DNA from: Fodinibius sp. Rm-B-1B1-1
Lineage (GTDB): Bacteria; Bacteroidota; Rhodothermia; Balneolales; Balneolaceae
Direction: 5' to 3'
Length of the DNA: 64,000 nucleotides
NCBI RefSeq assembly: GCF_038594945.1
Contig: NZ_JBCFYD010000001.1
Span: forward strand, 248,001-312,000
The position numbers and the translations under genes are program-made. Below, piece after piece: positions 23,218 to 31,980 of the stretch. The notes under the pieces are model-generated. The model was not told where the DNA came from. It saw only the letters and a program-made list of their open reading frames with translations, and searched no databases. Within the stretch, counting starts at the first letter, position 1. Every line of letters begins with the position of its first letter.

Positions 23218-24603
23218 ATGTATTCTCAAAAATCAGTGGCACCCGAAACAGCAAATCCCAAAGACTGGTCCCCCCAATCCTGGAAACAATTTCCAGTTAA
23301 ACAGCTCCCAAAGTATCCCAACCAAGCTGCATTGGAGAAGGCCTATAATGAATTACAAAACAATCCACCACTGATTACTTCCTGGGAGGTTGAGGCCCTC
23401 AAGAAAAAACTTGCTGATGTAAGTGCCGGCAATGGCTTTCTACTGCAAGGTGGAGATTGTGCCGAAAGTTTTGCTGACTGCAAATCCCCAAAAATTGTAA
23501 ACCTCCTTAAGGTATTGCTCCAAATGAGCTTTATCCTTATTCACGAGATGGAAACCTCGGTGGTTCGCGTTGGACGTATTGCCGGTCAATATGCCAAGCC
23601 GCGCTCTCGGGATTATGAAATCGTAGATGGTGAAAAAATTCATAATTATCGGGGTGATCTCATTAATAGCATCAACCCTACCAAAGAAGATCGAATGCCC
23701 GATCCCCAACGGTTGATTGAGGGATATAACAAAGCAGGATTGACGATTAACTTTTTGCGAGCCCTTTCTGATGAAGGCTTTGCTGACCTGCACCACCCTG
23801 AATACTGGGAACTCGATTTCATGCAGGAAAATGAGTATTACAAAGAGTACGAGGCGATGGTTAATTCCATTCAAAAAGCGGTAAACTTTATGGAGACCAT
23901 TACGCCCAATGAATTTAATACGCTTCAGAAAATTAATGTTTATACTTCTCACGAGGGTCTTAATCTATATTATGATTCTGCTCAAACGCAGCGCGTTCCC
24001 CGTCGTAAAGGTTGGTACAATTTAAGTGCCCACATGGTTTGGTTGGGGAACAGAACCCGTGATCTGGGAGGAGCTCATGTTGAATATCTCCGTGGTATTC
24101 GTAATCCCATTGGAATTAAAATTGGCCCTAATTATGATCTCGACCAGACTCTAAAACTGATTGAGCGACTGAACCCTACCCACGAACAGGGAAAAATTGT
24201 GCTCATTACACGATTCGGTGAGGATGAAGTCGAAAAAGGACTACCAGACCTTATTAAAAGAATCAAGCACGAAGGAATGCCTGTGGTTTGGAGCTGTGAT
24301 CCTATGCATGGCAACACTTTTAAAACGGATGACGATGTTAAAACCCGAAACTTTGATGCTATTATCTCAGAGATTCGTAAAACATTCGCCATCCATCGCG
24401 ACTTAGGCAGTTATCTTGGTGGGGTGCATCTCGAACTTACCGGTGATAACGTAACGGAATGCGTGGGTGGGGCCAATGGCCTGCACGAAGGACAGCTTCA
24501 CAAAAACTACGAAACCTACTGTGATCCGCGCCTCAACTACCAACAGAGTCTCGAAATGGCCTTTCTCATTGCCAAAGAATGGAACCAAAGCTACGGCAGT
24601 TAG
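23218..24603 (+). CDS. aroG: 3-deoxy-7-phosphoheptulonate synthase, class II
   Basis: 461 aa, the plant/actinobacterial class II type. Signatures: GFLLQGGDCAESF with the metal Cys, RVGRIAGQYAKPRS, SAHMVWLGNRTRDLGG, VWSCDPMHGNT and GVHLELTGDNVTECVGG. It condenses PEP and erythrose 4-phosphate, the first step of the shikimate pathway. It is monocistronic. The TAG stop is the first unit of a TTAGCAG tandem repeat. The symbol is by function; class II members are not homologous in close sequence to E. coli AroG. Confidence 0.95.
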   Translation: MYSQKSVAPETANPKDWSPQSWKQFPVKQLPKYPNQAALEKAYNELQNNPPLITSWEVEALKKKLADVSAGNGFLLQGGDCAESFADCKSPKIVNLLKVLLQMSFILIHEMETSVVRVGRIAGQYAKPRSRDYEIVDGEKIHNYRGDLINSINPTKEDRMPDPQRLIEGYNKAGLTINFLRALSDEGFADLHHPEYWELDFMQENEYYKEYEAMVNSIQKAVNFMETITPNEFNTLQKINVYTSHEGLNLYYDSAQTQRVPRRKGWYNLSAHMVWLGNRTRDLGGAHVEYLRGIRNPIGIKIGPNYDLDQTLKLIERLNPTHEQGKIVLITRFGEDEVEKGLPDLIKRIKHEGMPVVWSCDPMHGNTFKTDDDVKTRNFDAIISEIRKTFAIHRDLGSYLGGVHLELTGDNVTECVGGANGLHEGQLHKNYETYCDPRLNYQQSLEMAFLIAKEWNQSYGS

Positions 24604-24641
24604 CAGTTAGCAGTTAGCAGTTAGCAGTTAGCAGTTAGCAG
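24596..24641. repeat. TTAGCAG heptamer tandem repeat (6 full copies)
   Basis: Six perfect TTAGCAG units run from 24600 to 24641, preceded by a partial GCAG (24596-24599). The stop codon of the DAHP synthase gene is in the first unit. There is no divergence between units, which suggests recent expansion by slippage. It resembles in form the short heptanucleotide repeats known from cyanobacteria. Confidence 0.95.
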
Positions 24642-24869
24642 GATGACAAATTCTGTTTTCATTTTAAAAAACAGCTTTCTCGCTTCTACTTTATTACACC
24701 AAATACTGTTAACTGCATTTCTGTCCACTGCCCTTGTCTGTCACAAATACAGCCGGGCTGTCGGTTTGGCGAACCAGATAATGACATTTTTTTCTTTCCT
24801 GCTGACACCTCTGAAAATTTCGCGGCCTATCAATGGCTGAATGTCAGTATTTCCCTGCCTAAGAGCTCT
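24642..24869. other. intergenic region upstream of hsp20 with palindrome
   Basis: About 230 bases with no convincing gene. A perfect palindrome ACAGCC-G-GGCTGT lies at 24749-24761, about 110 bp upstream of the sigma-54 promoter, the usual distance for an enhancer-binding protein. Several TGTC/GACA half-site-like words surround it (24738-24742, 24781-24786, 24804-24807, 24842-24846). Confidence 0.4.
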
Positions 24870-24885
24870 TGGTACAGGTCTTGCA
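24870..24885 (+). promoter_or_regulatory. sigma-54 promoter of hsp20
   Basis: TGGTAC-AGGTC-TTGCA: the invariant GG (24871-24872) and GC (24883-24884) are separated by exactly 10 bp, and all bases fit TGGYAC-N5-TTGCW. The start codon of the Hsp20 gene is 66 nt after the GC. Confidence 0.65.
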
Positions 24886-24950: not shown

Positions 24951-25379
24951 ATGACTTTAATGAGATATACCCGACCAAGTAAAGACGTTACGTCTAAGAA
25001 CTTTTCCGATATTATGGATGAGTTCTTTAATGATGTTGTAAATGAACGACGCGATAACTTTGTACCCAGCATCGATATTTCTGAAACGGATGATCAGTTT
25101 CAAATATCTGCTGAATTACCGGGCATGAACAAAGACAATATTGATATTAGTCTGGAGAATGGCCGGCTTGCAATAAGCGGTGAACGAAGCTTCAAAAATG
25201 AAGAGAATAACAAAAAATATCATCGCGTAGAAACCAAATACGGTTCCTTTGAACGCTCTTTCCAGTTGCCCGATAATGTTGATGAAGACAGCATTTCAGC
25301 TACCTACGAAAATGGATTGCTGAACATTACTATCCAGAAGAGCGAAAGCAAAGTGAAGAAACAGATTGAAATTAGCTAA
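24951..25379 (+). CDS. hsp20: Hsp20/alpha-crystallin small heat-shock protein
   Basis: 142 aa. The alpha-crystallin domain covers about residues 40-140: VPSIDISETDDQFQISAELPGM, a conserved ISGER strand, and the YENGLLNI signature. The C-terminal tail lacks a classical I-x-I motif beyond KKQIEIS. It is an ATP-independent holdase that keeps unfolding proteins soluble for DnaK/ClpB. The ATG at 24951 is preferred over a GTG three codons upstream because GAGGTG (24939-24944) then serves as Shine-Dalgarno. A sigma-54 promoter lies upstream and a terminator follows. Confidence 0.94.
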   Translation: MTLMRYTRPSKDVTSKNFSDIMDEFFNDVVNERRDNFVPSIDISETDDQFQISAELPGMNKDNIDISLENGRLAISGERSFKNEENNKKYHRVETKYGSFERSFQLPDNVDEDSISATYENGLLNITIQKSESKVKKQIEIS

Positions 25380-25406: not shown

Positions 25407-25447
25407 GCGGGAGCTGCCTTGATCAGTAGCTCCCGCTTTCTTTTTTC
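25407..25447 (+). terminator. intrinsic terminator of hsp20
   Basis: GCGGGAGCT (25407-25415) pairs perfectly with AGCTCCCGC (25428-25436), loop of 12 nt, followed by TTTCTTTTTT. It ends hsp20 transcription before htrA. Confidence 0.93.
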
Positions 25448-25543: not shown

Positions 25544-27076
25544 ATGAAACAAGTTCGTTCATCTAATTTACTTTGGGCTTTTGTAGCAGTATTGGTGGTT
25601 GGCTTTTATACCGTTGATTTGGAAACGGATACCGCATCGATGATTTCACTTCCAAACTTCACGTCAGATACTGTCGCTACTAATACAGAGCAAAGAACAA
25701 AAACATCAACGCAGCAGAACAAGGCTCCATCAAAAACTATTACAGAGCTTAATGATACTATCGTTAAGATAGCAGATGAGACTAAGCAAGCGGTTGTTAC
25801 TGTTAAAGTAACACAGAAAGTAGAAGCCCGTCCCAATCCATTTAGTCAATTTTTTGGCAATCCTCGTCAAGAACCCCAGGAGTATGAGCGCAGAGGACAT
25901 GGCTCGGGAGTCATTGTCTCGAAAAAGGGATATATCCTAACCAATAACCACGTGGTAGAAAATGCCAATAAAATTGAAATCACTCTCTTTAATGATAAAA
26001 CCTACGATGCTGAAATCGTTGGTTCCGATCCGCTTACAGATATCGCTGTTTTAAAAATTGACGCATCAAACCTTAACGTTATTAAATTGGGCAACAGCGA
26101 ACAGCTTCGCGTGGGCGAAATGGTTCTTGCCATCGGGAGTCCACTGGAAGCCAACTTGGCCCACTCCGTATCAATGGGAATTATTTCGGCCAAGGAACGA
26201 CGCATTGGCATTCTGGAACAGCGCAATGCCGGTTACGAAAACTTTATCCAAACGGATGCTGCTATTAATCCAGGAAACTCTGGTGGTGCCCTGGTGAACA
26301 TGGATGGCGAACTTGTGGGCGTAAATTCTGCCATTGCATCTCGTTCGGGTGGTAGTGACGGTATTGGCTTTGCCGTACCCGTTGATATTGCCAAACGCGT
26401 GATGCAATCAATCATCGAGAATGGGCGTGTCGTTCGTGGATTTCTTGGAATCACTTCAGGTGGTGAAGTGGATGGTACGATGGCCAAAGCCCTCGATCTT
26501 GATAAAGCATATGGCGTGATAGTCGGTCAGGTTAAGCAAGATGGTCCTGCCGACAAAGCTGGTCTTAAAGAGGATGACATTATTCAAACGATGAATGGTG
26601 AACCCATCCGTAGTTGGGGCGCCTTCCGTACCAAGGTAGCAACCTCTTCGCCGGGAACAGAAGTTGAGCTGGAAATAAATCGTGATGGTAATAAAAGAAC
26701 ACTCTCAGTAACCTTGGGTGAACTGTCTAATGATGAAATGGCCAAAAATTCACAACAACAAAACAGATCAGAAGATCTTCAGAAAAAGCTGGGGTTCTCG
26801 GTTGAGAATTTATCTCCCCGTATTGCTGAAGAACTGGAATTGAACCAAGACCAAGATGGGGTTGTCGTAGCGCAGATTTCCCAACAAAGTGAGGCTTATC
26901 AGCAGGGGCTTCGCCGGGGCCATGTAATTACTGAAATTGACCGCAACCCAATAAGCAATGAGCGAGATTTTATGAATGCCATGAATAACATTGTTGAAGA
27001 AGGTAAGGATGTAGTTCTATTACGTGTTACAGTGCCCCGCAGCGGCAGCAGTCAACTCATTGCATTTGAACTTTAA
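25544..27076 (+). CDS. degP: Do/DegP-family (HtrA) serine protease
   Basis: 510 aa. One N-terminal helix (residues 9-22) acts as signal or anchor, followed by a Ser/Thr-rich linker. The trypsin-like domain has His136 (TNNHVV), Asp166 (TDIAVL) and Ser246 (GNSGGAL). Two PDZ domains follow (from about residue 295, VRGFLGI, and about 410, LGFSVENL). It degrades or refolds damaged envelope proteins. An SD-like CGGAG lies 5 nt before the ATG. It has its own terminator, so it is monocistronic in the chaperone block. Confidence 0.95.
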   Translation: MKQVRSSNLLWAFVAVLVVGFYTVDLETDTASMISLPNFTSDTVATNTEQRTKTSTQQNKAPSKTITELNDTIVKIADETKQAVVTVKVTQKVEARPNPFSQFFGNPRQEPQEYERRGHGSGVIVSKKGYILTNNHVVENANKIEITLFNDKTYDAEIVGSDPLTDIAVLKIDASNLNVIKLGNSEQLRVGEMVLAIGSPLEANLAHSVSMGIISAKERRIGILEQRNAGYENFIQTDAAINPGNSGGALVNMDGELVGVNSAIASRSGGSDGIGFAVPVDIAKRVMQSIIENGRVVRGFLGITSGGEVDGTMAKALDLDKAYGVIVGQVKQDGPADKAGLKEDDIIQTMNGEPIRSWGAFRTKVATSSPGTEVELEINRDGNKRTLSVTLGELSNDEMAKNSQQQNRSEDLQKKLGFSVENLSPRIAEELELNQDQDGVVVAQISQQSEAYQQGLRRGHVITEIDRNPISNERDFMNAMNNIVEEGKDVVLLRVTVPRSGSSQLIAFEL

Positions 27077-27097: not shown

Positions 27098-27131
27098 AAA
27101 AAGCCCTTCGGTTTTCCGGAGGGCTTTTTTT
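27098..27131 (+). terminator. intrinsic terminator of degP/htrA
   Basis: AAAAAGCCCTTCGG - TTTT - CCGGAGGGCTTTTTTT: a 13-14 bp stem with a single G-U and a T tail, 21 nt after the stop codon. Confidence 0.95.
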
Positions 27132-27187
27132 ATGACAAGCTGACGAGATCAATGCTATATATTGACAATTCGTTAGCTTTTGGATTA

Positions 27188-27203
27188 TGGCACCTTATTT
27201 GCA
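27188..27203 (+). promoter_or_regulatory. sigma-54 promoter of the DnaJ-like gene
   Basis: TGGCAC-CTTAT-TTGCA fits the RpoN consensus TGGCAC-N5-TTGCW at every specified base; GG (27189-27190) and GC (27201-27202) are 10 bp apart. The expected start site is near 27214, giving a leader of about 40 nt before the ATG at 27255. Confidence 0.8.
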
Positions 27204-27254
27204 ATAATTCATAATGAAATACGAAAAAAAGCTCTATAGTGGCATAATTTCATT

Positions 27255-28280
27255 ATGGAATATAAAAACTATTACGACATACTTGGGGTTAGTAAAAATG
27301 CCTCTCAGGATGAAATAAAAAAGGCATACCGTAAGAAGGCAGCTAAATACCATCCTGATAAAAATCCTGATGATCCATCTGCAGAAGAAAAGTTTAAAGA
27401 AGTAGGTGAAGCGTATGAAGTTTTAAAAGATCCCGAAAAAAGAAAACTCTATGATAAAGTCGGCAAAGACTGGAAAAAATATCAGCGTGCCGGTGGATCT
27501 GCTGATGGATTTAACTGGCAAGATTATGCCCGACAAAGTCAACAAGGCCGGGGTGGTTACGGTGGGCGTAGCTACCAAACGGAATTTGATTTAAATGATC
27601 TGTTTGGTGGTGGTCGTACTCGAGGTCGCAGCGGAAGCAGTGGTATGGGCGGCGGCTTCTCCAGCTTTTTTGAAACTATTTTTGGGGGCGGTGGCAATCC
27701 TTTTGAACAAACTCAACAGCAACGTTCGCAAGGACATCGCTACCAAGGCCGTGCTCGACAACAAAAGCGCAACGGTAAACAAAATACCAAAGCCAGTATT
27801 ACAATTTCATTAAAGGAAGCCTATGAAGGAACTTCACGTACCCTGCGTGTAGGGGGCGAAAAAATGAAGGTGAAAATCCCAGCTGGCATTGAAGACGGCA
27901 AGCGTTTAAAACTTAAAGGAAAGGGCCAAAGCAGAGCTCCCGGCGGTGCTCGAGGCGATCTCTACCTTACCGTAAATATTAACATGCCCGAGGGCTACGA
28001 GCGTAAAGGCAATAATATTTATTACGATCACCCGATTGATCTTTACACCGCTGTACTTGGTGGAGAAACCGTTGTTGATACCATTGCTGGTAAAGCTAAG
28101 TTAAATATTCCCACAGGTACATCCGGTGGCAAACTACTTCGTTTGAGCGGCATGGGCATGCCTGAATTTCGAAATTCATCTAACAAAGGGGATCTCTTTG
28201 TACGGATTCAAATACAAGTACCGGAAAAACTATCAAATAAAGAAAAAGAGCTATTTAAAAAGTTGGCGGAGCAAAAATAA
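27255..28280 (+). CDS. cbpA: DnaJ-family co-chaperone, CbpA-like (no zinc finger)
   Basis: 341 aa. The J domain (residues 3-70) contains the HPD tripeptide at 33-35. A Gly/Arg/Gln-rich linker follows (about 75-180; [17 protein letters not shown]). The two C-terminal substrate-binding beta domains start near residue 185 ([18 protein letters not shown]). There is no CxxCxGxG zinc region, so it is a class B J-protein of the CbpA type that stimulates DnaK. It is preceded by a consensus sigma-54 promoter. The gene ends 2 nt from the convergent outer-membrane protein gene. Confidence 0.92.
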
Positions 28281-31894: not shown

Positions 31895-31980
31895 TAGACA
31901 TATTTTAGGATTCGGTATGATATTGGCTTCTTTAATAGTGAAATAACAAAAAAGAAATTTTCACTAAGTGACCATCTATT

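Follow-up and report, generated by a model that had tools for sequence, protein, structure and literature searches.

Sequence comparisons point to a sigma-54 chaperone regulon in Fodinibius sp. Rm-B-1B1-1 that includes cbpA and probably answers to one dedicated activator

The cbpA gene of Fodinibius sp. Rm-B-1B1-1 is very probably preceded by a sigma-54 promoter, TGGCACCTTATTTGCA, and comparison of sequences makes it highly likely that this promoter is part of a chaperone (heat-shock) regulon dependent on sigma-54, in which a single dedicated activator, encoded in a miaB–activator–lptE cluster, opens the promoters. To our knowledge, the control of heat-shock genes in the Bacteroidota and their relatives is poorly described, and sigma-54, which depends on an activator, is not usually tied to heat shock. 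A specific answer is offered here: predicted sigma-54 promoters stand before the core chaperone operons, and one candidate activator is near-universal among the sampled genomes of the phylum. If this is right, sigma-54 would serve as the sigma factor for heat shock in a major bacterial lineage. The promoters and genes of hsp20 and cbpA lie in the window (the whole 64-kb stretch of DNA that was analyzed) at the following positions:

24870–24885, + strand: predicted sigma-54 promoter of hsp20, TGGTACAGGTCTTGCA, perfect to TGGYACN5TTGCW; the site is present in 30/30 orthologues
24951–25379, + strand: Hsp20 small heat-shock protein, 142 aa (Pfam HSP20, 9.5e-29)
27188–27203, + strand: predicted sigma-54 −24/−12 promoter, TGGCACCTTATTTGCA, with the cbpA/dnaJ-like gene 3' of the site
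27255–28280, + strand: CbpA/DnaJ-like co-chaperone, 341 aa (Pfam DnaJ, 7.3e-31; DnaJ_C, 9.6e-42)

The site upstream of cbpA has the sigma-54 form, with GG (27189–27190) and GC (27201–27202) ten bases apart inside TGGCAY-N5-TTGCW, and the cbpA ATG (27255) begins 51 nt past its 3' end; transcription would be expected to start near 27214. The exact pattern TGGCACN5TTGCA occurs once in the 64-kb window, compared with a mean of 0.04 in 100 dinucleotide shuffles. The initial annotation had reported this match with a chance expectation of 0.03, and both the pattern and the rate held on re-examination. Named relatives of the CbpA protein come mostly from Fodinibius and Aliifodinibius, of the family Balneolaceae.

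Conservation was scored in Balneolaceae DNA upstream of cbpA (24 regions), groES (30) and hsp20 (30), with a threshold of 13/15. All 84 regions score at least 13/15 and 74 are perfect, whereas the opposite-strand control reaches the threshold in 2/84 and shuffled sequences in 5%. The columns of the site are 0.91–0.93 conserved, compared with 0.47–0.54 for the flanks. The comparison of orthologous upstream regions that the initial annotation had proposed thus gave a site of at least 13/15 in 24/24 cbpA orthologues. A further 20 regions (12 groES, 8 hsp20) include 14 that score at least 13/15, the other six being hsp20 regions of genus g5 with a score of 12. Among the 58 family genomes, rpoN is matched in 55 and HrcA in none (0/58), which rules out HrcA control. 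The rpoN match is missing in G004 (98% complete), G033 and G036, which may reflect gene loss or an assembly gap; both G004 and G033 nevertheless retain sigma-54 sites as well as an activator. Outside the family, in six groES loci of other Bacteroidota families (L171, L172, L175, L176, L178 and L179), the upstream DNA keeps TGGCAY with a −12 box that is weaker or off-consensus, and TGTCA-like elements lie upstream in the same six loci.

The distribution of sites was then read across the 3.41 Mb assembly (six contigs). The pattern TGGYACN5TTGCW has eight matches, compared with three for its reversed control, and the three that are intergenic and face a gene stand before groES–groEL, hsp20 and cbpA. 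The wider pattern TGGYAYN5TTGCW gives 22 matches against seven for the reversed control; eight of these are intergenic and gene-facing, and they precede five chaperone operons, a fliS-like flagellar gene, a YjbR-like gene and a lipoprotein-like gene. Perfect −24/−12 sites are found at groES–groEL, hsp20, cbpA, grpE–dnaJ and hsp20–dnaK, where the site stands before the pair and dnaK is the second gene; another hsp20 gene has an upstream sigma-54 site with one mismatch. This crowding at chaperone operons far exceeds that of a random gene draw. The perfect site at the flagellar genes (G000:C1:1411635-1411650; L117, L136) lies before a fliS-like/fliD gene pair, and a receiver-type sigma-54 activator is encoded about 2.4 kb beyond it in the same cluster. 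The intergenic sigma-54-like sites before the YjbR-like and lipoprotein-like genes are at G000:C1:1463946 (L118) and G000:C2:696483 (L123).

The genome carries one rpoN (PF04552, 1.9e-58, 197.8 bits) and gives six strong PF00158 matches to sigma-54 activators, all six of them full, so that both components named in the initial annotation as the first thing to look for are present. Its reading of TGGCACCTTATTTGCA as a sigma-54 promoter is borne out by conservation, by rpoN and the activators, and by the perfect sites at four further chaperone operons, and the same evidence backs its claim that an enhancer-binding activator is needed here.

The candidate for this role is a protein of 432 aa with an N-terminal AAA+ sigma-54 domain (PF00158, 1.4e-69), a GAFTGA loop in its sequence, a C-terminal Fis-type helix-turn-helix (HTH_8, 2.6e-12) and no receiver domain, the gene for which sits between miaB and lptE. 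This protein has one strong match per genome in 79/80 Bacteroidota, and in 6 of the 20 loci sampled its gene and miaB are found a few kilobases or less from groES–groEL, with the same orientation. In five relatives (G016, G021, G031, G033 and G056) it is the sole detected activator. Four of these genomes (G016, G021, G031 and G033) have a perfect groES site and G016 also has a perfect cbpA site, while in G056 hsp20 was the only region read, with a site of 12/15. Two single-activator genomes are only 79–87% complete, and the count of one is less certain in G033 and G056 because these are incomplete assemblies. Given its once-per-genome presence, its proximity to groESL and the sole-activator relatives, the miaB-linked, receiver-less AAA+/Fis protein is the likely activator of the chaperone genes. 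The linker between its AAA+ and DNA-binding domains (about 120 residues) is variable and poorly conserved, and therefore gives no clue to the signal. Elsewhere in the genome, a short degenerate sigma-54 activator-like gene (G000:C2:663577-664047, L008) is convergent to a full activator gene and lies near a glycosyltransferase-like gene.

The domain arrangement is that of PspF, which activates the phage-shock operon of E. coli and likewise lacks a receiver, with AAA+ at its N terminus and a Fis-type helix-turn-helix at its C terminus. Unlike PspF, the candidate has the variable linker of about 120 residues between its domains, and it falls far below the PspF cut-offs of TIGR02974 (299 against 444 bits, or 299.1 against 443.55 unrounded) and NF008622 (244 against 529 bits).

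A possible binding site for the activator emerged as the palindrome TGNCA-N3-TGNCA, learned from at most 105 nt of hsp20 and cbpA upstream DNA. Its matches in the window are as follows:

24833–24847, + strand: candidate activator site upstream of hsp20, ATGGCTGAATGTCAG; a palindrome match inside the training set, suggestive only
27132–27146, + strand: candidate activator site, ATGACAAGCTGACGA; the best palindrome match, about 41 nt upstream of the cbpA −24 box, suggestive only
27162–27176, + strand: second candidate activator site, TTGACAATTCGTTAG; the second-best palindrome match, which resembles a −35 hexamer, suggestive only

The sequence of ATGACAAGCTGACGA is identical in most members of the genus. 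Held-out promoters with the palindrome are those of grpE (P 0.013), hsp20–dnaK (P 0.007) and the second hsp20 (P 0.013); it was not found at the flagellar promoter (P 0.78) or within 110 nt upstream of the genome's own groES (P 0.33), and a further match, before the YjbR-like gene, falls within the adjacent coding sequence. The palindrome is weak and, because the training sequences share descent, its assignment to the activator is suggestive only. Two other candidates were discarded: a strong groES palindrome from the first motif search, which fell in the coding end of ksgA, and the fixed consensus CTGAM-N5-KTCAG, which was too loose (88 window matches at two or fewer mismatches).

Could TGGCACCTTATTTGCA be a functionless chance match? 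An exact match arises in 3/100 shuffled windows and the genome-wide matches lie mostly inside genes, but the site is kept in 84/84 regions and the matches are concentrated before unlinked chaperone operons. Conservation and the recurrence of the same site at other chaperone genes raise it above chance, and its persistence across many Balneolaceae genera rules the chance match out as far as sequence can, leaving it a vanishingly small probability. It is also conceivable, if improbable, that cbpA is driven mainly by a housekeeping promoter and that sigma-54 makes a minor contribution. A weak sigma-70-like match (ATGGCA-17-CATAAT, 27187–27215) overlaps TGGCACCTTATTTGCA, TTGACA occurs upstream, and tandem promoters have been reported in Chlamydia (PMC8762339). 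However, the region holds five sigma-70-like matches where 8.5 are expected from shuffles, and just 16/84 upstream regions contain the Bacteroidota TAnnTTTG box, which rules out that the conserved element is a Bacteroidota sigma-A box.

The identity of the activator raises a separate alternative, to which we give a similarly low weight: the sigma-54 regulon would exist as described, with its chaperone genes driven by a different activator, a two-component NtrC-type regulator. Five other full activators are encoded in the genome, and the pairing of activator with promoter is not readable with certainty from sequence. Nevertheless, wherever one activator was detected, in the five relatives described above, it is always the miaB-linked one and such promoters are kept; in two g5 genomes with two activators (G004 and G041), the second matches the flagellar regulator.

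With the miaB-linked protein as the preferred activator, the mechanism proposed is that RpoN–RNA polymerase would occupy the −24/−12 boxes of groES–groEL, hsp20–dnaK, grpE–dnaJ, hsp20 and cbpA, and that these promoters would be opened by the receiver-less AAA+/Fis activator from the miaB–activator–lptE cluster, probably bound to TGNCA-N3-TGNCA palindromes 25–110 nt upstream. We infer use of these sites by the sigma-54 polymerase in Fodinibius sp. Rm-B-1B1-1 from the conserved motifs and the genes that accompany them. The signal would presumably be heat or misfolded protein (protein-folding stress). Since it has no receiver domain, the activator may be restrained by a partner, perhaps by chaperones acting in a feedback loop; that the chaperones themselves exert this restraint is a guess, drawn by analogy to other regulators of heat shock.

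In other bacteria, the same core chaperone genes are governed by RpoH (sigma-32) and HrcA/CIRCE. Control in Fodinibius would instead be exerted by an activator at sigma-54 promoters, the evidence for absence covering HrcA only (0/58). A broader proposal is that one receiver-less protein, encoded once per genome and linked to miaB and lptE in much of the Bacteroidota, acts with sigma-54 as the master heat-shock activator of the phylum, replacing RpoH or HrcA, and that, since it has no recognisable sensor domain, the state of the chaperone pool switches it. We advance this tentatively and with more doubt than belief.

Chaperone sigma-54 promoters are already known as a kind. In F. psychrophilum, mapped sigma-54 starts (motif SM4) lie at groESL, dnaK, grpE–dnaJ, htpG, clpB and lon; its authors noted three sigma-54 activators and assigned none to the chaperones, and its locus tags place a sigma-54 regulator–lptE pair (0733-0732) close to groESL (0729-0728) (PMC9723704). 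The two species share the −24/−12 promoter type at groESL, dnaK and grpE–dnaJ. They differ in that the F. psychrophilum starts are mapped, whereas the Fodinibius regulon is predicted from sequence comparison, and in membership: the Fodinibius set includes hsp20 genes and cbpA, with a clpB site as a weak candidate, and the F. psychrophilum set includes htpG, clpB and lon. According to a 2025 survey, Bacteroidota and Planctomycetota are predicted to be enriched in a sigma-54 chaperone cluster composed of GroEL, GroES, IbpA/Hsp20, GrpE, DnaJ and DnaK, the same gene set as the Fodinibius regulon; Balneolota and Rhodothermota do not figure in its main text, and its passage on the cluster names no activator (PMC12316311). 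The initial annotation had called sigma-54 control unusual for heat-shock genes, which stands for bacteria generally but not for the Bacteroidota, where the F. psychrophilum study documents it (PMC9723704) and the survey predicts it (PMC12316311). Neither the assignment of this activator nor the chaperone regulon of the Balneolaceae appears to have been reported in the literature searched, which covered a minority of subscription-journal papers and yielded no paper naming the miaB-linked activator as a heat-shock activator.

The remaining features of the window concern the genes and gaps around hsp20 and cbpA, and clpB further downstream:

25407–25436, + strand: terminator-like hairpin 3' of hsp20, between hsp20 and htrA (automatic scan)
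25544–27076, + strand: HtrA/Deg-type protease, between hsp20 and cbpA (Pfam Trypsin_2, PDZ)
27103–27131, + strand: terminator-like hairpin with a T run in the htrA–cbpA gap (read by eye; missing from the automatic scan)
31913–31928, + strand: weak candidate for a sigma-54 site before clpB, CGGTATGATATTGGCT (13/15)

The region upstream of htrA has no sigma-54 site (best score 10/15). In CGGTATGATATTGGCT, GG-N10-GC is intact with two mismatches elsewhere, and the clpB ATG lies 52 nt on; about 5% of shuffled 350-nt regions score 13/15. Given the mapped clpB start in F. psychrophilum, clpB may be a weak member of the sigma-54 regulon, although membership is unproven from one score. A short tandem repeat with the unit GTTAGCA occupies window positions 24599–24642, between an AroG-like gene and hsp20.
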